From assembly GCF_000425045.1 (NCBI RefSeq), contig NZ_AULA01000018.1:1-48309 (forward strand): 48,309 nucleotides of DNA, in the 5' to 3' direction. A program made the translations under genes and the position numbers. Source of the DNA: Acidaminococcus intestini DSM 21505 (GTDB lineage: Bacteria > Bacillota > Negativicutes > Acidaminococcales > Acidaminococcaceae). Position 1 is the stretch's first letter, and each line of letters starts with the position of its first letter. The notes beneath the pieces were generated by a model. The model ran no database searches. It had not been told where the DNA came from and saw only the letters and a list, made by a program, of their open reading frames with translations. Of the stretch, positions 4,712-40,951 are shown piece after piece.

Positions 4712-6226
4712 TCACCCCCTTGACGTCTTGATGATGGTCGCCGGATAATAGTCGCTCCCCATGTCGATGCTCCCTTCGTAATGATGGAAACAGCCGTACA
4801 CATTAGAGCTGTTGCCCCAGCATCCGCCGTTGCCGTCATAGACCACGACATGCCAGTTCGGATCCGGCTTGCTGTAGCGGTTGTACATGATGATGTCGCC
4901 TTTCTCCAGCTGTGCCGGGTCGTAGGGAATCGCCAATCCCTGGGCTTCGGCATCGGCCCGGAGCTGGTCGCATCCTTTGACGTTGCTGTTATATTCCTGC
5001 GCGGCAAAGGGCGAATACCCGGCAGCGGCAACTGTTGCCCGGTCCACGCAGCCATTGGAGCCATAAGGTGAAACGGTGCCATCGAAATTCTCCATGCACG
5101 AATCCACCACATCGCCTCCGGCGGCATTCCCGCTCATGGACGCCCCGCTCCGGCTGCCCGAAGCGGCCGCTGCAGGCGGCACGTAATCGGGGTTCGCATT
5201 ATAGGACGCACTGTCGAGTTCCTGCTTCTGCTCATCCAGCAGTTTATGGAAGACCAGATGCAGCTCCATGGTATGCCTGTTGCCCTCAATCCGATGGCTG
5301 TCCGATTTGATGAAGAACCGCCCTTTGAGCTGTTCTTCCTGGATATCCACGGAAAAGCCGGCAATGCACTGGATATGGCCGAGCGCCTTGACGGACATAT
5401 CATGGGCAACGGTCTTCAGCATGGCCCGGGCCTGCGAGGCATCGTCCTGCTTGGGGTCGGCCTTGCAGATGGCCTGGATGGTGCCGAATCGTGCGATGTC
5501 GGTGCCATTCGGCATCTCGCCTTTCGTCTGGCCCGCACTGTCTACGACCACCACTTTCGACACCATGTCTTCGATGGACTCGGACACAGATGCCCCGGTG
5601 AGATTCGTTTCATCGCTGATGAGGAAGTTCTCCACCACCTGGTCATTGGTACAGACCACATTCAGCTTCCCGTCCGTCATGTAGATATGATACCCCTTGC
5701 CATCCTGTGCCGACTGGTAAAACAGCGCCTGCTTGATGGCATCGGTCACTGAGATGTCATCGGCGATGAAACTGCATACCACGGAAAGATCCGGCATCAT
5801 CCCGGCTTCGATGGAAAAGTCATGGATGGTCTGCCGGATGGCATCAGCCACGGTCACATTGGCGTATTTCCGGGTAATGCGGGATTTTGCCAGATAGATG
5901 ATATTGTCGAAGGCCACAAAGCGCATGGCATAGGACTCGCTGTCCCGGCTCCGGGAAAAGATGCGCCCCTGGAAAACGGGGTACGTCTCCTGCGTGACCT
6001 CATCGGTATAGGAAAGACACACTTCATCTCCCAGCTCCAGAACGGCATTCGTCCAGTCCTTGTCTTTCGTGGTATAGGCGATATCAAATTCCAGCTTTCT
6101 TCCGGCCTGCTCCACATCGCCCGACCAGGTATAAGAAAGGGCATAGGCAGACAAGTCCGTGTTCTGCGGTTTGTCTGCCTGCTGGTTTCCCGTATCTGCC
6201 TTATTTATCTTTGCCAACTGGAACAT
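4712..6226 (-). CDS. Tail hub protein (XkdQ/gpD-like) fused to a cysteine-peptidase-like domain
   Basis: The N-terminal ~330 residues resemble XkdQ/gp27-type hub proteins: a beta-rich 'LSYTWSGDVEQAGRKLEFDIAY' start, an 'AMRFVAFDNIIYLAKSRI' helix and 'TVADAIRQTIHDF'. After an Ala/Ser/Gly-rich linker comes a CHAP or NlpC/P60-like part: 'GSNGCVDRAT' with the candidate nucleophile Cys, and 'KGDIIMYNR...NWHVVVYDGNGG' with the candidate His. The tail tip may therefore cut peptidoglycan during DNA entry. I prefer the ATG at 6226, 9 bases after AAAGGA, over two upstream ATGs. The peptidase assignment rests on the Cys/His spacing and context. Confidence 0.82.
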   Translation of the reverse strand: MFQLAKINKADTGNQQADKPQNTDLSAYALSYTWSGDVEQAGRKLEFDIAYTTKDKDWTNAVLELGDEVCLSYTDEVTQETYPVFQGRIFSRSRDSESYAMRFVAFDNIIYLAKSRITRKYANVTVADAIRQTIHDFSIEAGMMPDLSVVCSFIADDISVTDAIKQALFYQSAQDGKGYHIYMTDGKLNVVCTNDQVVENFLISDETNLTGASVSESIEDMVSKVVVVDSAGQTKGEMPNGTDIARFGTIQAICKADPKQDDASQARAMLKTVAHDMSVKALGHIQCIAGFSVDIQEEQLKGRFFIKSDSHRIEGNRHTMELHLVFHKLLDEQKQELDSASYNANPDYVPPAAAASGSRSGASMSGNAAGGDVVDSCMENFDGTVSPYGSNGCVDRATVAAAGYSPFAAQEYNSNVKGCDQLRADAEAQGLAIPYDPAQLEKGDIIMYNRYSKPDPNWHVVVYDGNGGCWGNSSNVYGCFHHYEGSIDMGSDYYPATIIKTSRG

Positions 6227-6935
6227 TTTCATCATTCCTTTTCAGGTTCATGGTCGTCAGCCGAATGATGTCCCCCGCCGATAGGCCGCCGCTGCGGATG
6301 ATGCTGCGGTAGACCTGGAACTTGGAGAACTGCTCCTTATTGAGCGTGACCGATTTTCCGACGGCCCGGCCCACGACATTGCCGATGCTGTCGCCCGGAT
6401 AATAGGTGATATTCTTCTTCATCTTCTGCCAGAATGACTCAGGGCGTTTCTTCAGCCCCGTTGCCGGGTCCGTTTTCCCAGTTTCCGCCGCTGTGACATA
6501 GCGGTATTCCGTCAGCGCCAGTTCATAATACACATCACCGCTGCCGTCCTTTTCCCCGAACTTGAAGGAGCTGATCAGGCAGGGCATGGAGATGGGTGTA
6601 TCCGATACCGTGAGCTGGCAGACCTCGCCGCCTGTACGCATGGATTCCAGTTCGGCGATATAGGTATAAGGCGACATCGTCATCATGGCAAAGGGATAAT
6701 CCTGGGCGGGGAAAAATCCCGCCAGCGTCAGGGACTTCAGCCCGGTCCTGCCTTTCATGAGATACTCCCCGTAATTGTTGATATTCACCGTGCCATGATT
6801 CGTATTGACGGAAACCATCAGTTCCGAAGGCAGCACGGGAAAGGTCACGACAGAGCTGCCCGCAGCCAGGGAAATCGTCAGATCCTGTGACGCCTGCCCG
6901 ATGGCATTCAGGATGGATTCTAAGAATGAAGCCAT
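6201..6935 (-). CDS. Tail protein XkdP-like with degenerate LysM-type C-terminus
   Basis: The 244-residue protein begins with a segment for tail-tube/hub proteins ('VTFPVLPSELMVSVNTNHGTV', 'GRTGLKSLTLAGFFP'), typical of XkdP. Residues about 185-235 (YYPGDSIGNVVGRAVGKS...YRSIIRSGGLSAGDIIRL) follow the LysM outline, a GDS start and a G-x-x-I/L end, with an insertion. XkdP proteins usually end in LysM. It starts on the stop codon of the tape measure gene and overlaps the hub gene. A tail-tip/hub-plug role is expected. Confidence 0.82.
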   Translation of the reverse strand: MASFLESILNAIGQASQDLTISLAAGSSVVTFPVLPSELMVSVNTNHGTVNINNYGEYLMKGRTGLKSLTLAGFFPAQDYPFAMMTMSPYTYIAELESMRTGGEVCQLTVSDTPISMPCLISSFKFGEKDGSGDVYYELALTEYRYVTAAETGKTDPATGLKKRPESFWQKMKKNITYYPGDSIGNVVGRAVGKSVTLNKEQFSKFQVYRSIIRSGGLSAGDIIRLTTMNLKRNDENVPVGKDK

Positions 6936-9055
6936 CAGATGGTCGCTCCTTTCATGCGATTCATACCGTACAACCGGATCTTTTCCACCAGCTTATCAGC
7001 TATGGCGTCGATGTCCTGCTCGCTGCGGACGTTCATCGTGTCGATGCAAATAGTGATGGAGTGGCTGCCTGCGTGCATGGCCTGCCGGATGCTTTCATCA
7101 TGAGGAATCACGGTACTACCGTTTGGCAGGTGGACCAGCTCGCCCCGGCGGTCTTCGTTGATGACCGCAAAGCCGCCGCCAAAGTTTTCGACGCCTCCGG
7201 CAAAATGGCTGATGGGTTCAATATTGAATCCCACATGAGTCGGCGCCCCGCCTGTCAGAGACGGGATGTCAATGGACAGGCCGTTGACGCTGGCAATAAG
7301 TCCGTTCACCTGGTCGATGACCCAGTTCACGCCGCTCCGGAAAGTATCCTTGATGCTCTCCCAGATGCTGGAAGCCGTCTCGCTGATGCCGTTCATGGCC
7401 CCGTCCCAGACCGAAGCAATCCATTGCATCCCGGCATCCACAGCATCCGACACCGCCTGGATGGCCTGTTCGATATACTGAGAAACTGTATCCCAGTTGC
7501 TCCAGAGGAGATACAGCCCTGCGATGACGGCAGCGATGACAATCAGGATTGGATTGGCCATCGCTGCTGCGCCGACTGCCCGGATAACGGTAATCATCAT
7601 CCTGCCCACGGTCAGGAACGTACTGCCCATGCCTTTGGCAACGATGGCGATGCCTCTTGCCACCGTGACGAGGCCCTTGAACTGGGCAGCCAGATACTTC
7701 GATACGCTCCCGGCCCTGCTGATGCCCGCGGCGATGGAGCTGAACGTCCCAAAGGCCCGTCCGCCTATCGTCAGCACCCGTCCCAGGGTGGAACCGAAGA
7801 GCTGGAAGGTCACGATGCCGAAAGCCACCTGGCCGATCAGCGTCTTCTGCTCCGGCGTCAGCGACCGGAACCAGGCCGCCAGTTCCTTCACCCGCAGGGA
7901 CATGGTCTTGAAATAAGGGGTAAAGGAAACAGCCAGGTCCATCCCGGCATTCTTCAGCTGGTTCATAGCAATCTGCATCTGCTCCGACGGGGTCAGCATC
8001 TTCTCATAGGCTTCCCGGGTCATGCCGGCAGACTGGGCCATCTGGTCCATGACCTTATCGAAATCCCCGGCTCCCTTACCCGTCAGGACCAGGATGCTGT
8101 TCAGACCCTCGACAGAACCAAAGAGCTGGGCCATCTGTTCGGCATCACCGCCCGTGGCCCGCTTCACTTCGCCCAGGAACTTCAGCCATCCTACGCTCTG
8201 CAAATGAGCCGCGTTGAACTCAAGACCCAGGGACTGAGCCAGTTTCGATGCTTCAGAAGACGGCTTCAGAATGTTGCTGTAGGCCGCCTTGAGTCCTGTA
8301 ATGGCCTCGCTGGTCCGGATACCGTTCTTGGTCAGGACGGCGATGGAACCGAACAGTTCCTGGGTGCTGACATTGAGCTGTGCCGCAATGGGGATGACGT
8401 TGCCCATGGACTGGGCCATCTCGCCAAAGGATGTCTTGCCGAAGTTCTGTGCCAGGAGCATCTGGTCCGTCACCGCCGTGGCTTCTTCTGCCGATTTACC
8501 ATAGGCATTGAGGACGGTCGTGACGCCGTTTACGGCAGTTGTCGTATCTGTGAACCCGGCCTTGGCGGCGATGGTCATATCCTTGACAAAGCCTACAGCA
8601 TGGCCGGCATCGACACCCGCCGAGATGGCCTGGTAGACCGATTCGGAAAGGTCGGCAACGCCTGCCCCGGTCTCATCGCTGACAGCACGGATTTCATCAC
8701 TGACCTTCTGCATGGAAACGACCGTCGTATCCACCAGGGTAGAAATCTTGGCGATGCCGTTAGCAAAGTCACTGTGCAGCTTGAAGCCTGCCGTTGCCGT
8801 CGCCAGGATGGGGGCTGACAGCAGGGCCATCTTGTCCGACAGGCTGGAGATCTTGCTTCCCGTCTGCTCGATGCTCTTTACCGTCCGCTTCTGGATGCGC
8901 TCATGCTCCGTCAGCTTGTCCGACAGGCCGCTGACCGATTGTTTCGCCGCCGCCATCTGGGTCTTCATGGCCCCCAGGCTGGCGTTGACACTCCGCACCG
9001 TCGGCGTGAACAAATCCCGCAGCCGGATGGCGGCATCAATGACGTTATTGGCCAT
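6935..9055 (-). CDS. Tail tape measure protein (TP901-type)
   Basis: The 706-residue protein has the expected layout: helical N-terminus, the TP901 core around residues 100-330 ('ANGIAKISTLVDTTVVS', 'GVADLSESVYQAISAGVD', 'GFTDTTTAVNGVTTVLNAYG'), two or three hydrophobic stretches near residues 480-540, and a C-terminal glycine-rich end. It sets tail length and is ejected with DNA. The ribosome site GTGAGGTG precedes ATG. Uniquely here, the gene directly upstream in the usual order (tail chaperone) is separated from it by a plus-strand Fic gene, so its transcription must pass through antisense to that gene. Confidence 0.92.
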   Translation of the reverse strand: MANNVIDAAIRLRDLFTPTVRSVNASLGAMKTQMAAAKQSVSGLSDKLTEHERIQKRTVKSIEQTGSKISSLSDKMALLSAPILATATAGFKLHSDFANGIAKISTLVDTTVVSMQKVSDEIRAVSDETGAGVADLSESVYQAISAGVDAGHAVGFVKDMTIAAKAGFTDTTTAVNGVTTVLNAYGKSAEEATAVTDQMLLAQNFGKTSFGEMAQSMGNVIPIAAQLNVSTQELFGSIAVLTKNGIRTSEAITGLKAAYSNILKPSSEASKLAQSLGLEFNAAHLQSVGWLKFLGEVKRATGGDAEQMAQLFGSVEGLNSILVLTGKGAGDFDKVMDQMAQSAGMTREAYEKMLTPSEQMQIAMNQLKNAGMDLAVSFTPYFKTMSLRVKELAAWFRSLTPEQKTLIGQVAFGIVTFQLFGSTLGRVLTIGGRAFGTFSSIAAGISRAGSVSKYLAAQFKGLVTVARGIAIVAKGMGSTFLTVGRMMITVIRAVGAAAMANPILIVIAAVIAGLYLLWSNWDTVSQYIEQAIQAVSDAVDAGMQWIASVWDGAMNGISETASSIWESIKDTFRSGVNWVIDQVNGLIASVNGLSIDIPSLTGGAPTHVGFNIEPISHFAGGVENFGGGFAVINEDRRGELVHLPNGSTVIPHDESIRQAMHAGSHSITICIDTMNVRSEQDIDAIADKLVEKIRLYGMNRMKGATI

Positions 9056-9078
9056 GCTGTTTCACCTCACTTTCCATC

Positions 9079-9164
9079 ATCTGCCTTATTTATCTGCCTC
9101 ATTCTCTTGCTATCTGCCTCATTTCATGCTAAAATGTGGCAGATGATAGAAAAATGAGGGAGAT
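9079..9164. promoter_or_regulatory. Five operator-like repeats around the Fic promoter
   Basis: The 12-base motif ATCTGCCTCATT (or TT variant) occurs as direct copies at 9079-9090, 9092-9103 and 9112-9123. Inverted copies follow at 9133-9144 (AATGTGGCAGAT) and 9153-9164 (AATGAGGGAGAT), each with one mismatch. They bracket the -35/-10 hexamers and the start of the transcript. A binding array for a regulator, probably the Fic protein's own C-terminal winged helix, is inferred. Confidence 0.7.
9107..9135 (+). promoter_or_regulatory. Sigma-70-type promoter of the fic gene
   Basis: TTGCTA at 9107-9112 and TAAAAT at 9130-9135 are separated by 17 bases, and a TG lies one base before the -10 (extended -10). 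The start point would be near 9142, leaving a short leader to the ATG at 9169. Two operator-like repeats overlap or touch it. Confidence 0.7.
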
Positions 9165-9168
9165 TTTT

Positions 9169-10218
9169 ATGCGGACATTTAACTACTCGCAGGAAATACA
9201 AAATTTACTGACACCTGAGATCGTCCAGCTTCTCACCTGTATCCATGAACACAAGGGACGGCAGGATTTATTTCTGGAAGCGAATACAGACGAACTAAAA
9301 ACGCTGGTAGACGTTGCCATGATCCAGAGTACAGGGGCTTCCAACCGTATTGAGGGAATACGCACCAGTGACAAGCGATTAGAAGCACTGGTCAGCCAAA
9401 AAGCTAAACCGCATAATCGGTCTGAACAGGAAATTGCTGGATATCGTGAAGTACTCGCCTTGATTCATGAAAATCATGACTATATTTCTCCTGTTCCTAA
9501 TGTCATCAGACAGCTCCATCGGGACCTGTACGCTTATTCGACAGGAGCTATAGGAGGAGACTATAAAAATGCAGATAACGTAATTGCAGAAACAGACGCA
9601 CAAGGGCATCAAAAGGTAAGGTTTATCCCCGTTCCTGCCTTTCAGACAGCTGACGCTATGGATTCTTTATGTCAATCGTTCCAGAATGCCTGGCAGGAAA
9701 ACATAATGGATAAATTGTTGCTGACTCCCATGTTCATTCTGGATTTTCTCTGCATTCATCCATTCAATGACGGAAACGGACGGATGAGCCGACTTCTGAC
9801 ACTCCTTCTTTTATATCGTGCCGGCTACATCGTCGGGAAATACATCAGCCTGGAAATGCTGATTGAAAAAACGAAAACCACTTACTACGAAGCTCTTCAG
9901 GCAAGTTCTTCCGGCTGGCACGAAAACCAAAACACCTATGCGCCTTTTGTGAAATATTATTTGGGCATCATCATAAAAGCATATGATGAATTCGAAGATC
10001 GGATCCAATATCTGGTAACCAGAAAGATTTCCAAGCCAGACCGGATCAAAGCCATCATTTCCCAGACACTAGGAAAAATCAGCAAAAAAGATCTGATGGA
10101 ACGCTGCCCAGATATCAGCCAGGGAACCATAGAACGCACTTTGTCCAGTCTAGTAAAAGAGGGCTATATCATCAAAGTCGGCTCTGGTCCGGCCACAGCA
10201 TACATCCGCAAGCGCTAA
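9169..10218 (+). CDS. Fic family protein with C-terminal winged helix
   Basis: The 349-residue protein carries the Fic active site HPFNDGNGRMSR at about residues 197-208 (matching HPFx[D/E]GNGRxxR), so it should transfer AMP or a related group from a nucleotide to a protein hydroxyl. An inhibitory-helix motif, S58-NRI-E62-G63, fits [S/T]xxxE[G/N], here N-terminal (class II). The last ~65 residues look like a winged helix-turn-helix (LGKISKKDLMERC...TIERTLSSLVKEGYI). ATG at 9169 follows GGGAG; an upstream in-frame ATG at 9136 lies inside the predicted promoter. It lies against the phage direction as a cargo gene and ends 18 bases from the convergent chaperone frame. Host target is unknown. Confidence 0.92.
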   Translation: MRTFNYSQEIQNLLTPEIVQLLTCIHEHKGRQDLFLEANTDELKTLVDVAMIQSTGASNRIEGIRTSDKRLEALVSQKAKPHNRSEQEIAGYREVLALIHENHDYISPVPNVIRQLHRDLYAYSTGAIGGDYKNADNVIAETDAQGHQKVRFIPVPAFQTADAMDSLCQSFQNAWQENIMDKLLLTPMFILDFLCIHPFNDGNGRMSRLLTLLLLYRAGYIVGKYISLEMLIEKTKTTYYEALQASSSGWHENQNTYAPFVKYYLGIIIKAYDEFEDRIQYLVTRKISKPDRIKAIISQTLGKISKKDLMERCPDISQGTIERTLSSLVKEGYIIKVGSGPATAYIRKR

Positions 10219-10236
10219 AAAGAACAGCAGACTACA

Positions 10237-10410
10237 CTATTTTTGGGCCTGCTTTTTCTTTTCCCTTTCTTCCATCTCATACCGGATAAAAGCGTACAGC
10301 ACCTGCCGTTCACCGTATCCCAGTTTCATGACCGCTGACGGCAGCAGGTGATGCTCCCGGAACAGGAGATACATCGCCTGCACTTCGCCATCGGTCTGAA
10401 TCAGTTTTTT
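10237..10410 (-). CDS. Tail assembly chaperone, frameshifted extension (XkdO/gpT-like)
   Basis: This frame is open directly from the slippery heptamer and encodes about 55 residues (LIQTDGEVQAMYLLFREHH...), ending in a Lys-rich tail. It has no convincing ribosome site of its own, and it begins exactly where the -1 shift would enter it. Expected product is a fusion of about 193 residues made together with the shorter chaperone; both forms bind the tape measure protein during tail assembly in lambda-like and PBSX-like phages. It stops at a TAG just short of the convergent fic gene. Confidence 0.8.
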   Translation of the reverse strand, partial: KKLIQTDGEVQAMYLLFREHHLLPSAVMKLGYGERQVLYAFIRYEMEEREKKKQAQK

Positions 10411-10817
10411 ACGGCTTTGTCTGCCTTTTCCTGGGTCGTATAGCCGTTGAGTTCTGTAATCTGTGCCGTAAGGTCGGCAATCTCTCCGGCCAGGAAGAGC
10501 TTGCGAATGATGTCACCAGGGAGTACAACTCCGAATTTTTCCAGCAGGTCCTTGTTCTTGAGATCCGGGTCTGCAATCCCCGCCAGGAGCGTCTGCGTCT
10601 GCATCTGATAAATGTCGATGTTATCGGCGCTGCCGTTGGTGAAATCCACGGCCATCTTCTGGATATCCGCATAGCGTTCCGGGTCGATGGCCCGGAGCGT
10701 GATGACAAAATCGAACCCGAACAGCTTCGAGAGCCGTTCCATCTTCACTTTCTTTTCAGGCCGTTCGGCCAGCTTGTTCACTACATCTGCTTTCAGCAGT
10801 CGGTCTACCATATTCAT
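10401..10817 (-). CDS. Tail assembly chaperone (XkdN-like)
   Basis: The 138-residue protein resembles phage tail chaperones of the XkdN type (helical, 'MVDRLLKADVVNKLAERPEKK', 'FVITLRAIDPERYADIQKM', a C-terminal 'ADLTAQITELNGYT'). It lies between the tail tube gene and the tape measure gene, the standard place. Its last codons are GTA AAA AAC TGA, so the stop codon follows the heptamer A AAA AAC directly. This is the short form; the long form reads into the next frame. Confidence 0.87.
   Translation of the reverse strand: MNMVDRLLKADVVNKLAERPEKKVKMERLSKLFGFDFVITLRAIDPERYADIQKMAVDFTNGSADNIDIYQMQTQTLLAGIADPDLKNKDLLEKFGVVLPGDIIRKLFLAGEIADLTAQITELNGYTTQEKADKAVKN
10404..10410 (-). other. -1 ribosomal frameshift site A AAA AAC
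   Basis: On the minus strand the bases 10410-10404 read A AAA AAC in the zero frame, followed immediately by a TGA stop. This is a canonical X XXY YYZ slippery heptamer. After a -1 slip translation continues in the open frame to 10237. No strong downstream pseudoknot was folded by eye. Confidence 0.8.
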
Positions 10818-15050: not shown

Positions 15051-15755
15051 TCAATGAATGAGCAATGCCAGCCGCTTTTCGAGATTTGCGGCTGGCACTT
15101 TCTGCAAGGGTTTCTTGGGGTTCAGTTTCTGTACAAAGGAATTCGTCACCGTGACCGGACTGTACAGCATGGCTTCCGGCTGCTGTTCCCCGTCTTCCTG
15201 GTCAAACAGGATTTCATCGGCAAAGCCCAGTTCCACGGCTTTGCGGGCATTGAGCCAGGTCTCGTCATCCATCATATGAGCAATCTTCGTGCGGGCCAGG
15301 CCGCTCTTGATTTCATAGGCATTGATGATGCTTTCCTTGACCTCGCTCAGCATGCCGATGGTCTTTTCCATCTCAGCCTTGTCCCCGTAAGCCATGGTCG
15401 CCGGATTGTGGATCATCAGGATGGCCACCGGCGACATGCAGACCTTCGTTCCGGCCATGGCAATGACGGAAGCCGCTGAAGCCGCCAGGCCGTCAATCTT
15501 GACGGTGACGTTCCCAGGATAATCCATGAGCATGTTATAAATCTGGGCAGCAGCAAAACAGTCACCGCCCGGGCTGTTGATCCAGAGGGTGATATCGCCG
15601 CTACCCGCGTTCAGTTCATCCTTGAACGCCTTCGGGGTCACTTCATCGCCCCACCAGGTCTCGTCCGAAATCTGTCCGTCCAGGTACAGCGTCCGTTCGC
15701 TGTCAAAGGCATCGTGGGCAACATTTGTCACCCATCTCCAAAATTTATGTTTCAT
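15051..15755 (-). CDS. ClpP-like head maturation protease
   Basis: The 234-residue protein is a ClpP-fold serine protease: 'DITLWINSPGGDCFAAAQIYNML', the nucleophile Ser in 'GLAASAASVIAMAG', the His in 'MIHNPA', and a late Asp-bearing stretch. It processes capsid and scaffold in HK97-like assembly. ATG at 15755 follows AAGGGAG and overlaps the portal stop codon by 11 bases. Order portal-protease-capsid is standard. Confidence 0.93.
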   Translation of the reverse strand: MKHKFWRWVTNVAHDAFDSERTLYLDGQISDETWWGDEVTPKAFKDELNAGSGDITLWINSPGGDCFAAAQIYNMLMDYPGNVTVKIDGLAASAASVIAMAGTKVCMSPVAILMIHNPATMAYGDKAEMEKTIGMLSEVKESIINAYEIKSGLARTKIAHMMDDETWLNARKAVELGFADEILFDQEDGEQQPEAMLYSPVTVTNSFVQKLNPKKPLQKVPAANLEKRLALLIH

Positions 15756-16230
15756 TCGTTTCTCCCTTCTGGGCAAAGGCCCCGGCGTCCTTGAGCTTGG
15801 TCATGCTGCCGTTCACCAGGTACAGGTTGCCGCCTTCCTCATCTGGCACAGGGTTCATGTCTTCCATCTCCCGGATATCGTTGGCGGACAGCCAGCCGTT
15901 CTGCCGACCGATGCTGTACCCGGTCATGCGGCTCTCGTAGTCGCCGCGCAAGAGGCCGTTCACGTTGAACTTCAGGAAATACTGCTTTTTCTCTTCCGGC
16001 AGGAACAGGGCTTTCTGCATGGCCTGCTCCCAGCGGATAACCCATGGGTCCAGAGTGTATTTCACAAATTCCATGGACTGTTGCTCGATGTTATTGAAGG
16101 AACTTTTCTCCAGGTCGCCAATCATGTGTGGCGGGATGCGGTAGAGCCGGGCAATCTCATCGAGCTGGAACTTCCGCGTTTCCAGGAACTGTGCTTCTTC
16201 CGGCGGGATGCCGATCTGCTGGTACTTCAT
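15745..16230 (-). CDS. Portal protein, exon 2 (C-terminal 161 residues)
   Basis: The exon starts MKYQQIGIPPEEAQFLETRKF, a conserved inner stretch of HK97-type portals, and ends GETNET. On its own it has no usable start or ribosome site at 16230, because it is the downstream exon of a split gene. Joining 18691-19461 to 15745-16230 gives an unbroken 418-residue portal, with the join reading VLEEG|MKYQQ. The portal forms the dodecameric DNA gate at one head vertex. Confidence 0.9.
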   Translation of the reverse strand: MKYQQIGIPPEEAQFLETRKFQLDEIARLYRIPPHMIGDLEKSSFNNIEQQSMEFVKYTLDPWVIRWEQAMQKALFLPEEKKQYFLKFNVNGLLRGDYESRMTGYSIGRQNGWLSANDIREMEDMNPVPDEEGGNLYLVNGSMTKLKDAGAFAQKGETNET

Positions 16231-16290
16231 GTAGAGTAGGCAAGTGCCGCCGTGCATTGTTTCCAATGTCGGTTTGCACAAGCCTCTCCC

Positions 16291-16325
16291 CAAACCGTGC
16301 TTACACCTCTCGATGTACACGGCTT
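16291..16325 (-). ncRNA. Group II intron domain V
   Basis: The minus-strand run AGCCGTGTACA ... TGTAAGCACGGTT folds into the domain V hairpin: AGCCGTG pairs with CACGGTT, TACA with TGTA, with a two-base AG bulge and a GAGA loop. It carries the catalytic AGC triad. Confidence 0.85.
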
Positions 16326-16335
16326 TCCATTTACA

Positions 16336-18135
16336 CTATGACGAATGATGGATTTTCTTATGGCATTCTTTACAAACAACAAGTGTTTTCCGCTTTCTTG
16401 CAATCATCGCCATTTCCCATTGCTCCTTACCTTTGAGGTTTTTCATCTTGTTGATGTGATGAATTTCAAAAGCAATGCCATCACCTTCCGCACCGCATAA
16501 TTCACATTTACAAGCCTTCAACCTGGCTTCAAGAGAATTTCTTGTGTTGAAATGGATATGGTTCTTCACCGTATCAATGCTTGGTTCGTCAAAGACAGTT
16601 CCTCGTTTGAAGTCCGAGAATTTCACAATCATCATGCGCTTTTTCTCTTTCTTCGTTTTATAAGGAATGCCCCACGACTTTCCGCACTTGAATATCCTCT
16701 TTATGCCTGATATTCTGGTTTTATGCTTCTTAGCAAGTGTTTTCAGACAGCTGTATTCCATCAGATAAACGAAATACGTCAGCTTTGAGAAATTACTGGC
16801 TATGCAGTAATAATTACAGATTCCACGAGTCTGCGAGTTATAGGTATCTACAATTTCAAGGTCAGTAAGACCCGCCATTGAGTTTCTTTGCCATGGGATG
16901 AGTTTGCCGTCCTTACCTTGAATGACAATCTCACGGTCGTACATGAACTTCTCAATCCGCTCCATGGGAATAAGCAATTCCACAGAGTTATTAAGCGTCC
17001 GCTGTAAAACCCCATTGGTTTTCCTTTTGGATTCCTGACATCTGCGCACGTTGATGTCATATCCGAGAAAATGAGCATTGCCGGAACTGTGCGTGATTTT
17101 TGTTTTCTCGTCAGACAATTCCAGTTTTAATCTTGTTGCCACAAACAACGTAAGCTCCTGCTTTATACGCTCCGCATCCTCACGGCTTCCGCTGACACCG
17201 ATAATAAAATCATCAGCATAGCGTACATAGGCGATTTTCTTGTCGGAAGCGTCCTTGTATGGCAATCTGCGCTTTTCCACTTCAAGCTTATGAATCTGTT
17301 TTAACAGTTCTTTCTTTTCCGCTTCATCAACGCATTCGCCGTAACGCTTTTGCAATTTGACAATTCCTCTCACCTTTTTGCCGTATGCAGGTGTATAGGC
17401 ATAATCAGCAGGCGCATTAAATTCTTTCTGCATGGCTTCTACTTTCTTGTCCAACTCATGCAGATATATATTTGCAAGAATCGGGGAAAGAATGCCGCCC
17501 TGCGGAGTTCCGCTGTATGTCTTGTGGTACTCCCAATTTTCCATGTAGCCCGCTTTCAGAAACTTTCCTATCAGATTTATGAACTTGCTGTCCTTAATCT
17601 TCTCAGAAAGCAGATTCAGCAGAACCGTGTGGTCAATGTTGTCAAAGCATCCCTTAATGTCTCCCTCGACAAACCATTTCGTACTGCGGAAAGAACGGCT
17701 GATTTCTTTCAGCGCTGAGTGACAGCTTCTATTCGGTCTGAATCCGTGCGAATGAGTACTGAAAACAGGCTCATAGATTACTTCAAGTATCTGCCGTATC
17801 GCATCCGGTATCAGTTTGTCTCTGAATGACGGAATACCTAATGGACGCATTTTTCCGTTGCGCTTAGGAATGTAGACACGTTTTACCGCTTTTGGCTCAT
17901 AGGTTTGGTTTTTCAGTTCATCAATAATCTGATTCACATATTCCTTTCCAAAACCGTCAGCCGTATCATTGTCCACACCCTCAGTTCCTGCGCCCTTGTT
18001 TGCGTAAAGGTTCTTGTATGCGGTCATGTAAATATCCTCTCGCAAAAGATACCTATAGAGCCGCGTGTAGATACCGTCTGAATGCTCTTCAGAATTTCTG
18101 TACATTCGTTCTAAAATTTCAGATGTTGGTTTCAT
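16336..18135 (-). CDS. ltrA: Group II intron-encoded reverse transcriptase/maturase/HNH endonuclease
   Basis: The 599-residue protein has an RT domain with the catalytic YADD near residues 306-309 and the motifs RPLGIPSFRDKLI and GTPQGGILSP. A maturase (X) domain spans about 400-510, and a C-terminal HNH/zinc part includes CELCG, EIHHINK and CKECHKKIH. It aids intron splicing and carries out retrohoming by nicking the target and copying the RNA. ATG follows GGGAGGAG. All active-site residues are present, so it should be mobile. AT content is higher than in the flanking portal gene, as expected for an acquired element. Confidence 0.95.
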   Translation of the reverse strand: MKPTSEILERMYRNSEEHSDGIYTRLYRYLLREDIYMTAYKNLYANKGAGTEGVDNDTADGFGKEYVNQIIDELKNQTYEPKAVKRVYIPKRNGKMRPLGIPSFRDKLIPDAIRQILEVIYEPVFSTHSHGFRPNRSCHSALKEISRSFRSTKWFVEGDIKGCFDNIDHTVLLNLLSEKIKDSKFINLIGKFLKAGYMENWEYHKTYSGTPQGGILSPILANIYLHELDKKVEAMQKEFNAPADYAYTPAYGKKVRGIVKLQKRYGECVDEAEKKELLKQIHKLEVEKRRLPYKDASDKKIAYVRYADDFIIGVSGSREDAERIKQELTLFVATRLKLELSDEKTKITHSSGNAHFLGYDINVRRCQESKRKTNGVLQRTLNNSVELLIPMERIEKFMYDREIVIQGKDGKLIPWQRNSMAGLTDLEIVDTYNSQTRGICNYYCIASNFSKLTYFVYLMEYSCLKTLAKKHKTRISGIKRIFKCGKSWGIPYKTKKEKKRMMIVKFSDFKRGTVFDEPSIDTVKNHIHFNTRNSLEARLKACKCELCGAEGDGIAFEIHHINKMKNLKGKEQWEMAMIARKRKTLVVCKECHKKIHHSS

Positions 18136-18690
18136 TGAGGTTTCTCCTCCCTTTCACCTTTCCTTTTAGAGTTGCATAAGCTGCGTTCCTTCGCCATGTA
18201 AGAGCTATTAACTCTCTCGGACTACTACGAACGCTCCGTACCCATGGGCGGTATTCAAGTCCTATAGACTATAGCCTTTCGGCATCCGCCTTTAGGGTAT
18301 CCCCAGTTAGCGTCATTGCTTGGTATGCTCGAATTATCGGTTCCGCTTTAGACTCTTTAACACAGGTTCTCCTGCTCGTGCCGTGACATTCGCAATCATG
18401 CCGCCTTTGAAGGATGTAAAGACAGTCAGTCACGGAATGGGTAACAGGCTAATTTCCCAATTCCCCTCGGAAATGGACACTCAAGTCTCACGTTCAGTAG
18501 ATACCTTAAACCTCATATCCGATTGTTGTGGCGGTTCAGTCGTACCCTTTAGCCTTTGAGTAACTTACCGCTTTCCTGTCGTGCTATGTTCCCGTATCAG
18601 CTTTCACTTTGCGGTAAGACAGGTCAACTCACCCATGATTGTGGGTGGTAGTACCAAACACTACTATCAATGACGCCCATCTGGGCGCAC

Positions 18691-19461
18691 GCCTTCTTCC
18701 AGCACGGCTACCTTGTGCGCGTTGCCTGTCCCCCGATAGACAGCATTCCAGGAATCCCGGACTCTGCCCGGGTCCTTCAGAACGCCTGGATGCTCCAGTA
18801 CCCCGCTGGGACTGGCCCCGTTGGCAAAGAAAGACGCACCGTATTCCTCGCAGGCCATGGTCATGCCCACGGCATTGCGGGCCATGGCAATAGGCGAATA
18901 GCCGACCAGGCCGTCAAAACCAAGGCCGGGGATATGCAGCACTTCTTCCTTCTGCAGGACCACCTGCCCGTATGGTTTGACATTCGGATTCTCATCACCC
19001 GTCTTGGTATACAGATAGAAAATCTGTCCCCGGTCATCCCGGCAGACGGTCATCTTGTCTGGACGCAGCGGATAAAGTCCCTGCACCCGTCCCAAGCGGT
19101 CCCGGATGATCTGGGCGTAGGCATTGCCCCAGATGAGTAGATGGCTCATAAGCGTTTCCCGGAAGATGAACGAGGTCATCTCCGGGTTCGGCTCATCATG
19201 AAGCAGATGATACAGCGGATGGTCATAGACCCGCTCCTTGCCGCCCGGCGTGTAACGGTACAGCTGTAGCGGCAGAGCTGCCAAGGTTTCCGCCAGGATG
19301 CGGACACAGGCATACACCGCCGTTGTCTGCATGGCCGTGAACTCGTTCACCATCTTGCCGCTGGTGGAAGGCCCGAACAGATAACGGAAATCCGTGCTGA
19401 TGTAATAGTTCTGAGGCTTGTCCCGAGTACGGAACAGGCTGGATAAAAATGGGATATGCAT
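18691..19461 (-). CDS. Portal protein, exon 1 (N-terminal 257 residues)
   Basis: The exon begins MHIPFLSSLFRTRDKPQ and includes typical HK97 portal segments: 'VYACVRILAETLAALPLQLYRY', 'HPLYHLLHDEPNPEMTSFIFRE', 'LLIWGNAYAQIIRDRLGRVQGLYPL' and 'ANGASPSGVLEHPGVL'. It ends VLEEG exactly at the intron boundary. Reading past 18690 gives only RPDGRH before a stop, so unspliced RNA yields a truncated portal. ATG at 19461 follows CAGGAGG. Confidence 0.92.
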
Positions 19462-19496
19462 GAAAACCTCCTGAAAAGGGATACTTAACCTAGTAA

Positions 19497-19547
19497 TTGA
19501 TAGTTTACAAACACGTTTTATTATTGGTAAACTATTTTCATAATAGT
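19497..19547 (+). promoter_or_regulatory. Promoter with nested palindromes upstream of the methyltransferase
   Basis: TTGATA (19497-19502) and TATTAT (19519-19524) form a possible promoter with a 16-base spacer. A perfect 7-base inverted repeat, AGTTTAC (19502-19508) and GTAAACT (19527-19533), brackets the -10. A second one, ACTATT/AATAGT (19531-19536 and 19542-19547), sits over the likely start point. They look like operators. Confidence 0.5.
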
Positions 19548-19573
19548 AAATCTCAGAAAGGAAATGAGCACTC

Positions 19574-20404
19574 ATGGGCAGAATAACTATTGAAAAAAAT
19601 ACGGTGCAAGAAACATTAATCATTCCCCTCTATGCCAGGAAACTTGGCAATGAACTCTTCCCTCACATTCTCCTAGACCCTTATGCGGATGACGTAATCA
19701 GACATCTGAATTACGATTTTTCTACGCTTGATAAAAAGAAAGGTTCTTTTGTTTGGAAGTTTGGTGCCTTAGAAGGTATTCTTCGAAGCAAAGCTATTCT
19801 TTATGAGATGCAAGACTATCTATCTTCCCATCCAGATGCGGCTGTTGTGAATATGGGATGCGGATTAGATCAGACCCCTCGCTTAGGAGATAACGGAAGA
19901 ATGAATCTATACAATATCGACAGGAAAGACATTATTTCCATACGAAATTCGCTTCTTCCCCCTATTGGCCGAGAAATCAATATCGCGGCTGATTTAAATG
20001 ATGATACTTGGACTCAATACATTGATGTAGTTCAAGGAGTTTTCCTGTTTGCAGCCGGAGTGTTTATGTATCTCAGAGAAAAAGAGGTACATCAACTTAT
20101 TCTGAGGCTAAAGGGTGCCTTTCCCCACGGTTGCCTCGTATTTGATACTATCGGCAGCTTCGGTATAAAGGTACTGATGAAGAGAACATTGAAAACAATG
20201 GGAATACATGGCATAAAGGGAATGTTCTACTGCAATAACCCACTTCATGACCTAAGATTGGACGACGACATTAAGGTATCTGTACGAAAATACCTGACAG
20301 GCTATGTAGACCTGAAAAAGGAAGGCATCTCTCCACTTTTAAGGGAAATGGCGTATCTTTTCGATTGGGTGTTCAGAATGAACATCTGCCAAATCACCTG
20401 GTAA
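19574..20404 (+). CDS. SAM-dependent methyltransferase, leucine-carboxyl-methyltransferase (LCMT/Tcmp) family
   Basis: The 276-residue protein carries the SAM-binding motif VVNMGCGLDQTPRL near residue 95, the acidic loop 'YNIDRKD', then 'IAADLNDDTW' and 'GVFMYLREKEVHQLI'. All are typical of the LCMT/Tcmp group of O-methyltransferases used in secondary metabolism and protein carboxyl methylation. It is AT-rich, faces against the phage late genes, and lies between TerL and portal with its own promoter and operators: a cargo (moron) gene. The substrate cannot be read from the sequence. It ends 6 bases from the convergent TerL stop. Confidence 0.82.
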   Translation: MGRITIEKNTVQETLIIPLYARKLGNELFPHILLDPYADDVIRHLNYDFSTLDKKKGSFVWKFGALEGILRSKAILYEMQDYLSSHPDAAVVNMGCGLDQTPRLGDNGRMNLYNIDRKDIISIRNSLLPPIGREINIAADLNDDTWTQYIDVVQGVFLFAAGVFMYLREKEVHQLILRLKGAFPHGCLVFDTIGSFGIKVLMKRTLKTMGIHGIKGMFYCNNPLHDLRLDDDIKVSVRKYLTGYVDLKKEGISPLLREMAYLFDWVFRMNICQITW

Positions 20405-20410
20405 TAAAAA

Positions 20411-23023
20411 TCAAAAAGCAATAACACCCCGTTCGTCATAGACACTGCCGCTGCCTATTCCGTTGCGGATGCAGCGGTCCAGTGCCATGATAGACGCCAC
20501 AATTCCGTCGATTTTTTCGACGGATTTTTCTTTGTCCGGCTTGATGTTCCCCGCCGGATCCTGCCGCATGACGACGTTGCCGGCCATCCATTTGAGGACG
20601 GGATTGCCGCCATGGAGGATGTTCCCTTCCATCAAGAGCTTGAACAGCTCCTTCGACGGTGGCGACATATCCTTGAATCCCTGGCCGAAAGGCACCATGG
20701 TAAAGCCCATGTCTTCCAGGTTCTGCACCATCTGGGTGGCGTTCCACCTGTCGTAAGCGATTTCCCGGATGTTATAGGTTTCTCCTAAACGTTCGATGAA
20801 CTTCTCGATGAAACCATAATGGATGACGTTCCCTTTCGTTGTCTGGATGAAGCCCTGCTTCTGCCAGACGTCGTATAGGACATGGTCCCGGTGGCACCGC
20901 AGTTCCAGCGTGTCTTCCGGCAGCCAGAAGAAAGGAAGCAGGATGTATTTCTCGTCATCGCTCCGTGGCGGGAAAGCCAGAACCAGGGCCGTGATATCCG
21001 ACGTACTGGACAAGTCCAGCCCGCCGTAGCACATCCGCCCCCGCAGGGAATCCCGGTCAATGGGAAGGCTCCCCTTGTCATAGACCTGTTCCGGTATCCA
21101 GCGGATGCTGGCCGAAGTCCAGATATTGAGCCGGAGCTGCTTGAAGACATTCTCTTCCGCCGGATTTTCGACGGCATTCCGATACGCTTCCCGGACGCGG
21201 TCGATTTGTATGGTATGGCCCAGGGACGGGTTCGCCTTGTACCAGTTCGCTTCATCCGTCCAGTCTTCCTCATGTTCCAGCCCATAGACCACCGGGTAAA
21301 AGGTGGCATCCTTCTTCCGACCCGCCATCAGGTCCAGGGCCTTGGTATGCAGTTCGTAACAGATGCTGTTCTTGTCATTGCCCGCTGTGGTGATGATGAA
21401 AAAGAGCGGCTGCTCCCTTGCATCACCAGAGCCTTTGGTCAGGACATCGTAGAGTTTCCGGTTCGGCTGGGCATGGATTTCATCAAAGACCAGGCCGGAT
21501 ACATTGAGTCCGTGCTTGGTTCCTGTTTCCGCTGACAATACCTGATAGAACCCGGCATTGCGGTAGTTGATGATCCGCTTCCCGGCCGACCGTATCTTGG
21601 AACGGCGCATCAGGGCTGGACTCATCTCGACCATCTGCCGTGCCACATCAAAGACGATGGATGCCTGGTTGCGGTCACAGGCCGCACCATACACTTCGGC
21701 ACTCGGTTCGTTATCGGCGTACAAAAGATAAAGAGCTATAGCCGCCGCCAGCTCGCTGTTATGCGTCTTCACCATCGTCCGCCCCGCCAGATAGCAATGG
21801 CTCGGGCTGTCCACCTGGATGCACTGCATGGGAACCTTATCATCCAGCGGCTTGATTTCTTTCAGATAATGAAAACAGGAACGCGTCTTTTTTTCGCGTT
21901 CCCGTCTGCGGATGCTTTTTCTATGAAGTTTGCTGACCGGCTGATCCGTAAAGGCGGTGAACCGTATCTGATACAAAGTCTCGCCTGTCGGTTTCCCATA
22001 GCGGGTCGAAGGGCATGACGTCATGGCGTTCTTGATGCCAAGGCTCCACAACAGTTCCTGCACTGATTCTACTAATTCTTGAATGGTGCTGACGTATACG
22101 CCCTGCCCTTTCCGTGTTCCGATGCAGCCATCGGAATCCATCAGTCCCTGCAGCAAGGCCCATCGCTGCGTTTCGGAAGCCCTGAGGTATTCCGGCCGGA
22201 TGACCTTATCCCGGAAGTTTTTCACCAGGATAGATTTCAATGCCTTATACACCAGGATTTCGCTGCCGCCGCAGGTCTGTGGATAGCGGTTATGCAGCGG
22301 GTACGGAATCAGCGGAATCAGGTCTTCCACATCACTGTCACGCACCGTGATTTCCGGTTTTGTTGCAGAACCGTTTCCCAACCAGTAGCCATATAAATAA
22401 GGATCTAACGGAAGGTTCCTTTCCGGAAGGTGTAATAGCTGGTTGACGGGAATCCGGATAAGCGAGCGGTTATCTTTGGATTTTTCCCTGTACTGTTTCG
22501 TGCGGCGGTAAATCTCGCCGGTTGTCCATTGCTTTTCCCGCGTCTTTCCATAAGTATATTCCACATCCCACAGATGACGTTCACCGGCCACAATCCGTCC
22601 TCCATCCCGGAAAACCAGTTCATAGGCTTGTTCGGTATCATCTACCGGGCTTTTGGCGACAACATGGCAGGGCTTTCCCTGCTCGTCAAAGACCCTGTCG
22701 CCGACTTTTAAATCGGCCATGGTTTTCCATCCTTCCGGCGTGGGAATGGGTGTATCCAGTGCGAGCTGTTTCCCGTTCTTCTTTGGAATCTCTATATAAG
22801 CCGTCAGGAACTGCCGTTTCCCGTTTTCCTTGACGATGCCGAAGAGATCACGCACAATCTGTTCCTGCCACGGCAGGAGCAGGAACGGCTGCCCGGCCCA
22901 TTTGCCTTTGGTATGACAGAGATGCTCGATGAAGGCAACCGCCCTGTCGGCCTTGTCCTTGTCGTAATGGGAATCTGGCAGCATGAACGCTGACGGCTTA
23001 TATACAAATGCCAAACTTGTCAC
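20411..23023 (-). CDS. Terminase large subunit (TerL) containing an intein
   Basis: The 870-residue precursor is a HK97-type terminase of ~533 residues split by a 337-residue intein. N-extein: 'LMLPDSHYDK' region and 'LLLPWQEQIVRDLFGIV'. The ATP-binding loop is PKKNGK|SELAAAIALYLL, with the intein between K and S. C-extein: 'LVFDEIHAQPNRKLYDVLTKG' (Walker B) and the nuclease part 'YGGLDLSSTSDITALV' and 'AYDRWNATQMVQNLE'. Terminase cuts and pumps DNA into heads. Without splicing the P-loop is broken, so activity depends on the intein. Start overlaps TerS by 4 bases. Confidence 0.93.
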   Translation of the reverse strand: MTSLAFVYKPSAFMLPDSHYDKDKADRAVAFIEHLCHTKGKWAGQPFLLLPWQEQIVRDLFGIVKENGKRQFLTAYIEIPKKNGKQLALDTPIPTPEGWKTMADLKVGDRVFDEQGKPCHVVAKSPVDDTEQAYELVFRDGGRIVAGERHLWDVEYTYGKTREKQWTTGEIYRRTKQYREKSKDNRSLIRIPVNQLLHLPERNLPLDPYLYGYWLGNGSATKPEITVRDSDVEDLIPLIPYPLHNRYPQTCGGSEILVYKALKSILVKNFRDKVIRPEYLRASETQRWALLQGLMDSDGCIGTRKGQGVYVSTIQELVESVQELLWSLGIKNAMTSCPSTRYGKPTGETLYQIRFTAFTDQPVSKLHRKSIRRREREKKTRSCFHYLKEIKPLDDKVPMQCIQVDSPSHCYLAGRTMVKTHNSELAAAIALYLLYADNEPSAEVYGAACDRNQASIVFDVARQMVEMSPALMRRSKIRSAGKRIINYRNAGFYQVLSAETGTKHGLNVSGLVFDEIHAQPNRKLYDVLTKGSGDAREQPLFFIITTAGNDKNSICYELHTKALDLMAGRKKDATFYPVVYGLEHEEDWTDEANWYKANPSLGHTIQIDRVREAYRNAVENPAEENVFKQLRLNIWTSASIRWIPEQVYDKGSLPIDRDSLRGRMCYGGLDLSSTSDITALVLAFPPRSDDEKYILLPFFWLPEDTLELRCHRDHVLYDVWQKQGFIQTTKGNVIHYGFIEKFIERLGETYNIREIAYDRWNATQMVQNLEDMGFTMVPFGQGFKDMSPPSKELFKLLMEGNILHGGNPVLKWMAGNVVMRQDPAGNIKPDKEKSVEKIDGIVASIMALDRCIRNGIGSGSVYDERGVIAF
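21758..22768 (-). mobile_element. Intein with LAGLIDADG domain in TerL, Gln as first residue
   Basis: The element starts QLALDTPIPTPEGWKTM and ends VKTHN, followed by Ser of the C-extein. Splicing block A is present except that position 1 is Gln (codon CAG). Block B is near GERHLWDVE, F and G are near MQCIQVDSPSHCYLAGR and VKTHN|S. Two LAGLIDADG-like helices are seen, LYGYWLGNG and ALLQGLMDSDG. The first has Asn where the catalytic Asp is usual. Boundaries are set by the restored PKKNGKSELA motif. Confidence 0.92.
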
Positions 23024-23656: not shown

Positions 23657-24268
23657 TTATTCGATGACTTCCCATTCATCAGCTCCGGGGATCAGCCCGA
23701 GACTGCTGCCTGTATCCCACTGTACATGGATGGTCCCGGCATCATCGACGAACTGGACGGTGCCTTCTGTTCCCCTGGGCGGGGCCTGCCTGTCATCCAT
23801 GGAGATAAGCCGCACCCGCGTTCCTTCCATCCGTTCCCGGCTGTGCCGCAGCCCGGCCCGCAGGACGGACAGGTCGAAACCGAATTTGCGGTAATCCCGC
23901 TCCATGTTCTGGTAGTACCAGTCTTCCGGGATGCCGAACCGCCGGTCTTCGTGCATGATGTACACAAGACCGCTGAGGATGCCATCATCTGTTTCCACAT
24001 CCACTTCTTTTTTGTAGTAGAACCGCGGGAAACCTTCATAGGCATCGAGCCGCCGTTCATCCGCCGGAGAAATGCACCAGAAAACAACCGGCACGAAGGC
24101 ATCCGCCTTCTTCTCGATCGTGGCGTAACATCCTGTCAGGGAACCTTTGAAGAGGAGTTCATAGCCCCGGATTCGGCCCGTCCCTGAAAGAACGGCGTCA
24201 GGACACCGTCTTGCCATCTGTACTTCACTCATGTTGCTGCCGTAGGCAATGTAGATACTTTGTTTCAT
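23657..24268 (-). CDS. Gamma-glutamylcyclotransferase-like (AIG2) protein with C-terminal DUF4314
   Basis: The 203-residue protein begins with the cyclotransferase signature YIAYGSNM (residues 6-13), has the basic/aromatic core, and the candidate catalytic Glu in LDAYEGFPRFYYKK (about residue 78). The fold cleaves or cyclises gamma-glutamyl-amine bonds to 5-oxoproline. Residues ~148-203 (GTRVRLISMDD...GTIHVQWDTGSSLGLIPG) match the small SH3-like DUF4314 domain. It follows an amidoligase gene, and such pairs are described as making and removing peptide-like amide bonds. ATG at 24268 follows GAAAGGATG. Substrate unknown. Confidence 0.85.
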   Translation of the reverse strand: MKQSIYIAYGSNMSEVQMARRCPDAVLSGTGRIRGYELLFKGSLTGCYATIEKKADAFVPVVFWCISPADERRLDAYEGFPRFYYKKEVDVETDDGILSGLVYIMHEDRRFGIPEDWYYQNMERDYRKFGFDLSVLRAGLRHSRERMEGTRVRLISMDDRQAPPRGTEGTVQFVDDAGTIHVQWDTGSSLGLIPGADEWEVIE

Positions 24269-24311
24269 CGCTCTCATCCTTTCTGAAGGGATTGCCCTTC
24301 TACTACCCCAA

Positions 24312-24329
24312 GGGCAGCCGAAGCTGCCC
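24312..24329 (-). other. Stable C(UUCG)G-loop hairpin between amidoligase and cyclotransferase
   Basis: The minus strand reads GGGCAGC TTCG GCTGCCC, a 7-base perfect stem closed by a C(UUCG)G-type tetraloop. It is not followed by a T run, so it is more likely an mRNA processing or stabilising element than a terminator. Confidence 0.6.
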
Positions 24330-24344
24330 GTAAGGCTATCCCCT

Positions 24345-40752: not shown

Positions 40753-40951
40753 ACTTTTTTCATATAATGACAGCATCTTATCCAAGATGCCTTGCATCCT
40801 ATATAACCTGAATACTCCTAAGACTCCAGTCGAACTTCTGCATCTATGCAGAGCCATCAAGGGGCCTGTAGAACTCGTTGATGTTCTGGATTGTCTATAC
40901 GCCCTCAAAAAAATTACATTAAATGAAAAGGGAGAAATAGAAAAATGTTGA
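40736..40951 (+). CDS. ABC-3C middle component (MC6-like, 71 aa)
   Basis: The start MILPNKLFSYNDSILSKMPCILYNLNTP and the end VELVDVLDCLYALKKITLNEKGEIEKC fit the small winged-helix middle components of ABC-3C systems, which join ATPase and effector. I chose the ATG at 40736 (GCGAGG upstream) that overlaps the preceding stop codon; an upstream in-frame ATG at 40697 lies inside that gene. It overlaps the ATPase start by 7 bases. Confidence 0.72.
   Translation: MILPNKLFSYNDSILSKMPCILYNLNTPKTPVELLHLCRAIKGPVELVDVLDCLYALKKITLNEKGEIEKC

Follow-up and report, generated by a model that had tools for sequence, protein, structure and literature searches.

A fic gene and the repeats upstream of it were examined in contig NZ_AULA01000018.1 of Acidaminococcus intestini DSM 21505 (NCBI RefSeq assembly GCF_000425045.1; 2.28 Mb in 55 contigs). 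The whole stretch analysed, here called the window, comprises positions 1 to 48,309 of this contig (48,309 nt) and is filled by a prophage, whose tail sheath gene (PHROG 1480) marks the tail as contractile. The fic gene was found on the strand opposite to that of the tail genes, as the only gene between those for the tail assembly chaperone and the tail tape measure protein (Table 1), a placement that had been proposed in a first-pass annotation made from the sequence alone and with which the PHROG matches of both neighbours agree. Two traits of a moron (cargo gene) were present, a promoter-like site of its own and a position in the tail operon, and no terminator on the + strand was listed by a terminator scan of the fic region.

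Repeats and promoter upstream of fic

Five copies of the 12-base motif ATCTGCCTCATT, three direct and two inverted, were found within one mismatch in the region 9079-9164, in agreement with the first-pass annotation, and the extended -10 promoter that it had placed among the repeats lies inside the array (Table 1). Four of the copies form an in-register unit, in which two direct copies are followed by two inverted ones with a 20-bp step on each side. The dyad centre is at 9128, 4.5 bp from the middle of the extended -10 box, and the inner inverted 12-mers are separated by a gap of 9, with a next gap of 29. The fifth copy (9079-9090) is spaced at 13 bp, and the corresponding bases differ from the 12-mer at 7 positions in the 97% relative (L033) and at 3 in the 93% relative (L002/L062). 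As it is out of phase and not conserved in these nearest relatives, it was rejected as an essential part of the operator and is probably accessory or decayed, such that the earlier count of five operator-like repeats stands for the four in 20-bp register.

When 9040-9168 was shuffled 3000 times with dinucleotides preserved, the largest number of copies of any 12-mer at up to one mismatch was 2 (108 of 3000 shuffles), compared with 5 in the real sequence. In 130-nt tiles taken at 40-nt steps over the whole window, at least four copies were found only in the repeat region and an overlapping tile. At up to two mismatches the motif occurs 8 times in the 48-kb window (5.7 expected) and is not enriched; the clustering is the unusual part. 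A promoter scan of 8900-10500 returned 3 sites where 2.3 were expected, no more than chance, and the case for the promoter rests on its position.

The host genome was also searched. At up to three mismatches, neither the inner inverted pair nor the 20-bp direct pair was found anywhere but at fic, and the half-site motif was therefore rejected as the mark of a wider host regulon. One exact half-site copy on another host contig, the only such copy inspected, had no repeat partner by eye.

Table 1. Coordinates of the fic gene, its upstream features and its neighbours in the window
Feature	Coordinates	Strand	Remarks
Fifth motif copy	9079..9090	+	1 mismatch; 13-bp step to the next copy, not in register
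Operator half-site 1 (outer left)	9092..9103	+	Exact copy of ATCTGCCTCATT; geometry kept in relatives
Operator half-site 2 (inner left)	9112..9123	+	Exact copy of ATCTGCCTCATT; covers the final base of the -35 box
Operator half-site 3 (inner right)	9133..9144	-	1 mismatch; covers the last bases of the -10 box
Operator half-site 4 (outer right)	9153..9164	-	1 mismatch; overlaps the Shine-Dalgarno stretch GAGGGAGA
Candidate promoter	9107..9135	+	TTGCTA 9107-9112, 17-nt spacer, TAAAAT 9130-9135 after TGC (extended -10)
Ribosome-binding site GAGGGAGA	9156..9163	+	5 nt 5' of the ATG
fic gene	9169..10218	+	ATG at 9169, stop ends 10218; 349 amino acids
Predicted C-terminal winged helix	10021..10215	+	About residues 289-347; AlphaFold2, fold neighbours
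Predicted recognition helix		+	Residues 318-330, with E322 and R323; AlphaFold2 model
Apparent cassette (operator, promoter and gene)	9090..10213		Aligned to relative L163 at 93%
Tail tape measure protein, left neighbour of fic	6935..9055	-	PHROG 991, 1.2e-87
Tail assembly chaperone, right neighbour of fic	10401-10817; with likely -1 frameshift extension 10237..10817	-	PHROG 389/4976

The Fic protein

The product of fic (Pfam Fic match, 7.8e-15) carries the catalytic motif HxFx(D/E)GNGRxxR as H197-PFNDGNGRMS-R208. N-terminal to this, at the end of helix 40-61, is the inhibitory motif, S58-N-R-I-E62-G63, which conforms to the definition (S/T)xxxE(G/N) for class II Fic proteins (PMC9755527). Residues S58, E62, G63, H197, R205 and R208, and also G202-R205, were invariant in 27 aligned sequences (window included). 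The product is, by its motifs, a class II Fic AMPylase, and the intact motifs point to AMPylation activity. A class I Fic toxin-antitoxin pair (FicTA, Phd-Doc) was considered and rejected, as a separate adjoining antitoxin gene was not found; fic is separated from the tape measure start by 113 nt and from the end of the chaperone extension by 18 nt, and neither gap could hold an ordinary-sized second gene.

The PADLOC SoFic profile matched the protein at 2.9e-36, and the scores with the NCBIfam SoFic equivalog (37.8 bits, cut-off 550) and with Fic_N (14.8, gathering score 26.7) were below threshold. PADLOC PDC-S04/S24 matches fall within the Fic part. Kinship of this kind hints faintly at a toxin-like or defence role.

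The C-terminal part matched DIP2311-like_C at 7.4e-5 (23.4 bits, below the cut-off of 27 for that family). The AlphaFold2 model of the whole protein had a predicted local distance difference test (pLDDT) score of 88. As fold comparison with the whole model mostly probes residues 5-287, residues 285-349 were modelled alone (pLDDT 91.6), which gave three helices and a two-stranded wing with PerR/Fur and other winged helices as fold neighbours. At the level of the predicted fold, the C-terminal domain is thus of the DNA-binding, winged-helix/helix-turn-helix (HTH) type, as had been read from the sequence before.

Conservation of the operator layout in relatives

Relatives were drawn from 31 loci and from 32 of 59 genomes of the family (E 1e-3), 60 of 380 of the class and 43 of 398 of the phylum (E 1e-50). 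A tblastn match at 1e-20 was present in 138 loci, of which nine were dropped because they had no start near query residue 1, were cut by a contig end or fell below 300 amino acids, and four more as upstream duplicates, including two further copies of the window. The final set held 125 distinct upstream regions including that of the window, and 66 of these were non-redundant (<75% protein identity). Earlier operator callers were superseded by one with an added -10 term. An operator was called in 113 of the 125 members; the 12 uncalled members were left out of the counts for protein residue R323 given below, as was L026, in which the gene is truncated before the winged helix and which was retained in the layout counts.

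Among the 66 non-redundant members, inverted pairs of 10-mers were found at a spacing of 23 bp in 31 (0.7 expected) and at 43 bp in 20 (1.1 expected), and direct pairs at 20 bp in 22 (0.5 expected) and at 21 bp in 10 (0.6 expected). Any such spacing signal was present in 61/66 fic upstream regions and in 14/123 upstream regions of neighbouring genes in the same loci, and a four-site score of at least 20 was reached by 60/66 and by only 1/121 of the other genes. Shuffles made for each sequence (40 each, p up to 0.05) gave 61/66 (113/125 in the full set) against 9/121. In 25 of the 50 members tested, the -10 box was centred on the downstream side of the dyad centre at a distance of 3.5-5.0 nt, as counted with the caller that lacks the -10 term, which mildly favours centres near -42 from the ATG. 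Absence of the repeats from close relatives had been named in the first-pass annotation as the observation that would speak against its proposal; four in-register repeats were found to be kept in both the 97% and the 93% relatives.

The half-site ATCTGCCTCATT is shared by the window and its two nearest relatives. Two relatives of 71-73% have ATCTCCATCATT, the two Bifidobacterium have TTTTCTGCATCA and several Clostridia, Kineothrix among them, have AATTTTATCATT, and TTTCTGCATATA, TTTTCTCCTAA, TTTTCCCTTAA, TTTCGTCC and TTACTACCTAAA were found in other members. The half-site sequence therefore varies by clade while the layout is constant, as expected for a site that is read by the linked protein.

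Covariation of the operator with the recognition helix

An association between R323 in the recognition helix and a TCAT core in the half-site was first spotted by eye, and a scan of all columns and a held-out set were run as checks. With TCAT counted anywhere in the half-site and in either direction, R323 and the TCAT core sorted together as 41/5 against 1/65 in 112 members, and as 25/4 against 1/30 in 60 non-redundant members (Fisher 1.3e-11). In the scan of 349 protein columns, R323 was the best (1.3e-11), the next column reaching 1.3e-6. With Fic-domain distance controlled for, operator and recognition-helix distances correlated at 0.368 (partial Mantel), and 0 of 2000 permutations were as high. 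Clades with half-sites of CCTAA type and of CATATA type have A at the place of R323. E322 was associated with a C at half-site position 7 (6e-8). Contacts of Arg with the G opposite C, and of Glu with C, would be of a usual kind.

Held-out phage-borne relatives

A scan of viral contigs with a single protein as query confirmed no relative, and a query made from the alignment returned 48 loci. These and two phage records made up a held-out set of 50, of which 44 could be used; 25 of them remained at <85% identity to the first set and to one another. The four-site layout was found in 21 of the 25; the 4 uncalled relatives were left out of the R323 table. The association with R323 held in 19 of the 21 called relatives (4/1 vs 1/15, p 0.004). 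In the complete phage PV036453, the fic relative is located between the terminase and portal genes, and half-sites of TTCTGC type were seen by eye around the promoter.

Cassette and mobility

The block shared with relative L163 (Table 1) and that shared with L164 (9039-10219, 90.5%) were compared with their surroundings, and the flanks showed no alignment except for one short match. As the shared block consists of the operator and the gene, both appear to move as one cassette, for which the tail operon would be one landing place. No phage structural gene was recognised in the flanks of six relatives, which were judged by eye from translated open reading frames (ORFs) with no family search. By the same inspection, L163 and L165 have transposase-like ORFs nearby and the other four flanks look like ordinary chromosomal genes. 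The six flanks suggest that the single-gene cassette is mobile and not peculiar to phages, and the earlier description of fic as cargo is thus apt for this prophage, given its place in the tail operon, but does not extend to the relatives as a feature peculiar to phages.

In L164, the cassette lies between imperfect direct repeats of about 67 nt. The same locus retains a short stretch resembling the start of the tape measure gene of the window, which hints at a route of cassette movement.

Proposed mechanism and alternatives

Taken together, it is highly probable that fic and its upstream region form a self-contained toxin-like cassette, in which the winged helix of the Fic protein would bind the four half-sites and repress its own promoter. 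Judged from the comparisons above, physical binding of the repeats by Fic is very likely, as is autorepression by the Fic protein itself, and repression rather than activation is likely as the sites overlap the -35 box, the -10 box and the ribosome site. The inhibitory helix would keep the enzyme off and the C-terminal winged helix would keep the protein scarce. For the latter, the winged helix would occupy the half-sites, two direct and two inverted at 20 bp, wrapping the promoter, probably as dimers in view of the dyad, and RNA polymerase would thereby be blocked, the -10 box lying at the middle of the inner inverted pair.

Several observations weigh against this reading. The spacing signal was missing from 5 of the 66 non-redundant members, no operator was called in 12 of 125, and in 25 of the 50 members tested for -10 position the best -10-like site lay elsewhere or was absent. 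The association with R323 was broken by 5 of the 60 non-redundant members and by 2 of the 21 held-out ones. R323 changed only 6 times on the tree, giving 4 supported independent pairs, in which the operator went in the same direction in 3.7 of 4 on average and never in the opposite one (sign test, p 0.125); with 133 rows, it followed R323 in 3.5 of 4. Weaker correlations with the operator were found for the wing (0.199), the rest of the winged helix (0.185) and the Fic domain given the helix (0.203), and as other parts of the protein also correlate, shared ancestry has been incompletely removed. In 29 tests of operator base and position, from which 13 of the 60 members were left out with a dyad outside -62..-25, the top protein column was inside the recognition helix in 3 and outside it in 26, which is what mere clade markers would give. 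Single near-copies of the half-site (up to one mismatch) also number 26 in the host genome, including the 5 at fic, against 3 for a reversed-pattern control; of the other 21, one is at 6194-6205 (+) in the window and 20 are at further places in the host genome.

It is very unlikely that the repeats are instead bound by another regulator, such as a phage repressor or a host factor, with the winged helix of Fic holding a substrate or regulating catalysis. Contact of the C-terminal domain with the catalytic domain is reported to matter for the toxicity of Sofic (PMC12249575), binding of the repeats by Fic is here a prediction, and small HTH or other regulator ORFs were seen by eye near the gene in some flanks. 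However, these regulator-like ORFs differ among the six flanks, the layout accompanies the gene in phages and at unrelated locations, and the operator changes in step with the recognition helix of Fic itself.

That Fic binds the repeats but activates its promoter, or both activates and represses it, is highly improbable. Half-site 1 lies upstream of the -35 box at a possible activator position, and in some relatives the called repeats are further upstream, centred at -85 to -110 from the ATG. However, the -35 and -10 boxes each share bases with an inner site and the ribosome site does so with site 4, and CccR, the Fic protein of known operator described below, is a repressor (PMC9755527). The promoter should also need no activator, as its -10 box is near consensus with an extended TG.

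There is next to no likelihood that the repeats are ends or recombination sites of a mobile cassette, for although they border the block shared with relatives on its left side, copies cluster at that end alone, repeats in relatives tend to centre on the promoter, and their sequence follows the DNA-reading helix. Equally negligible is an origin by chance or as a leftover duplication, which the lack of enrichment across the window would allow but conservation across relatives, the shuffles, the neighbouring-gene controls and the held-out set contradict.

An extension of the self-repressing cassette is that the operator array serves as a sensor, such that extra operator copies or altered DNA binding would switch on expression and AMPylation together. 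Bound Fic would then be held on its own promoter, and the triggers could be prophage induction or entry of the cassette into a naive cell. This seems unlikely, but one gene would in that case be repressor, sensor and effector.

The self-repressing arrangement would explain how a solitary toxin-like Fic gene can be carried and transferred safely with no antitoxin. The subfamily is spread over many Bacillota, two Bifidobacterium and phages. Its four-site geometry appears fixed and one position of the recognition helix readable, and it provides many natural operator/repressor pairs that differ from one another. If the operator array does act as a sensor, the family would supply many orthogonal repressor-operator pairs with a short helix code (R323 for TCAT, E322 for C at position 7).

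Other features of the prophage

In the tail assembly chaperone gene next to fic, a slippery A-AAA-AAC is located just 5' of the stop, and the -1 extension comprises 55 residues and ends at 10237. A -1 frameshift in the tail assembly chaperone is a known phage arrangement.

A group II intron divides the portal gene (15745-19623, -) into two parts, which match profile columns 2-203 and 202-321. The intron carries an ORF for a reverse transcriptase/maturase (16336-18135), and Rfam matches a group II intron at 16231-16327. Like fic, an LCM-type methyltransferase gene by the portal gene (19574-20404, +) stands alone on the opposite strand within the structural region. The gene for the terminase large subunit (20411-23023, -) includes an intein-like insert, whose LAGLIDADG_3 match precedes the match to the ATPase domain, and near the packaging genes an Amidoligase_2 gene overlaps a gamma-glutamyl cyclotransferase-like gene (23657-25241, -). 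A CTD11 protein followed by an AAA_23/DUF2326 protein at 39604-42579 (+) resembles a system of the ABC-three-component type, and is possibly a second defence cargo.

Comparison with known systems

The nearest solved relative is a Fic family protein of Bordetella bronchiseptica (PDB 8UQU), which matches residues 22-348 at 5e-83; the fold of the N-terminal domain agrees with a Z of 34.8 and a root-mean-square deviation of 1.5 over 251 residues, and the title of the entry covers the N-terminal domain only.

SoFic (PDB 3EQX, 3ZCN) likewise combines a Fic domain with a C-terminal domain and belongs to class II. Sofic is reported to be toxic and anti-phage (PMC12249575), and by analogy a role in competition or phage defence is weakly suggested for the protein described here. 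Fic_N-type (SoFic-type) genes of the same bacterial class were sampled (23 genes, including two fragments, with uncertain start codons), and their upstream regions had an inverted pair at 19-27 bp in 16 cases and at 41-47 bp in 4. Unlike in the fic subfamily, a direct repeat at 20-21 bp was found in only 1 of the 23. As SoFic-type promoters also have inverted repeats, Fic proteins with winged helices may commonly have operators of their own, with a geometry specific to the subfamily. Among the SoFic-type loci (L222-L249), L229 has a promoter inverted repeat TTACCCACGTT/AACGTGGGTAA at another spacing.

DNA binding has been reported to induce the Fic activity of CbFic2 of Coxiella burnetii (PDB 8CIL), whose high affinity for random DNA could, according to its authors, mean non-specific binding (PMC10628234). 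In the AbiEi antitoxins, an autoregulator acting on inverted repeats holds down toxin-antitoxin expression (PMC3985639, PMC7319586). AbiEi is part of a two-gene system, whereas in the present case a single polypeptide combines the toxin-like enzyme with the putative repressor.

The closest parallel in regulation is CccR of Yersinia pseudotuberculosis (structure, PDB 7XUX), a proteobacterial type VI secreted effector and class II Fic protein with a C-terminal HTH, for which self-repression was demonstrated by experiment (PMC9755527). Its operator consists of inverted repeats near -35 and -10, AGATAATCAT-N26-ATGATAATCT (PMC9755527). Like CccR, the protein described here is a class II Fic protein with a predicted C-terminal DNA-binding domain and inverted repeats over the -35 and -10 of its own promoter, and the CccR half-site AGATAATCAT likewise ends in TCAT. 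However, the sequence match of 7XUX is a distant one (residues 51-321, 1.3e-6), and the two half-sites of CccR with a 26-bp gap differ from the four half-sites here, which have an inner gap of 9 and 20-bp repeats. By both sequence and operator geometry, the subfamily is distinct from CccR. Among the literature matches listed, which were open-licence and judged by title and opening of the abstract, no report on operators of this Fic subfamily was found, and this says little about their absence from print. CccR is one Fic protein found in print to repress its own gene, and the present comparisons indicate such an arrangement as the rule in a subfamily. Self-repression by Fic is thus already known from CccR, and the family-wide, apparently co-evolving operator with its four-site geometry appears to be the new part.
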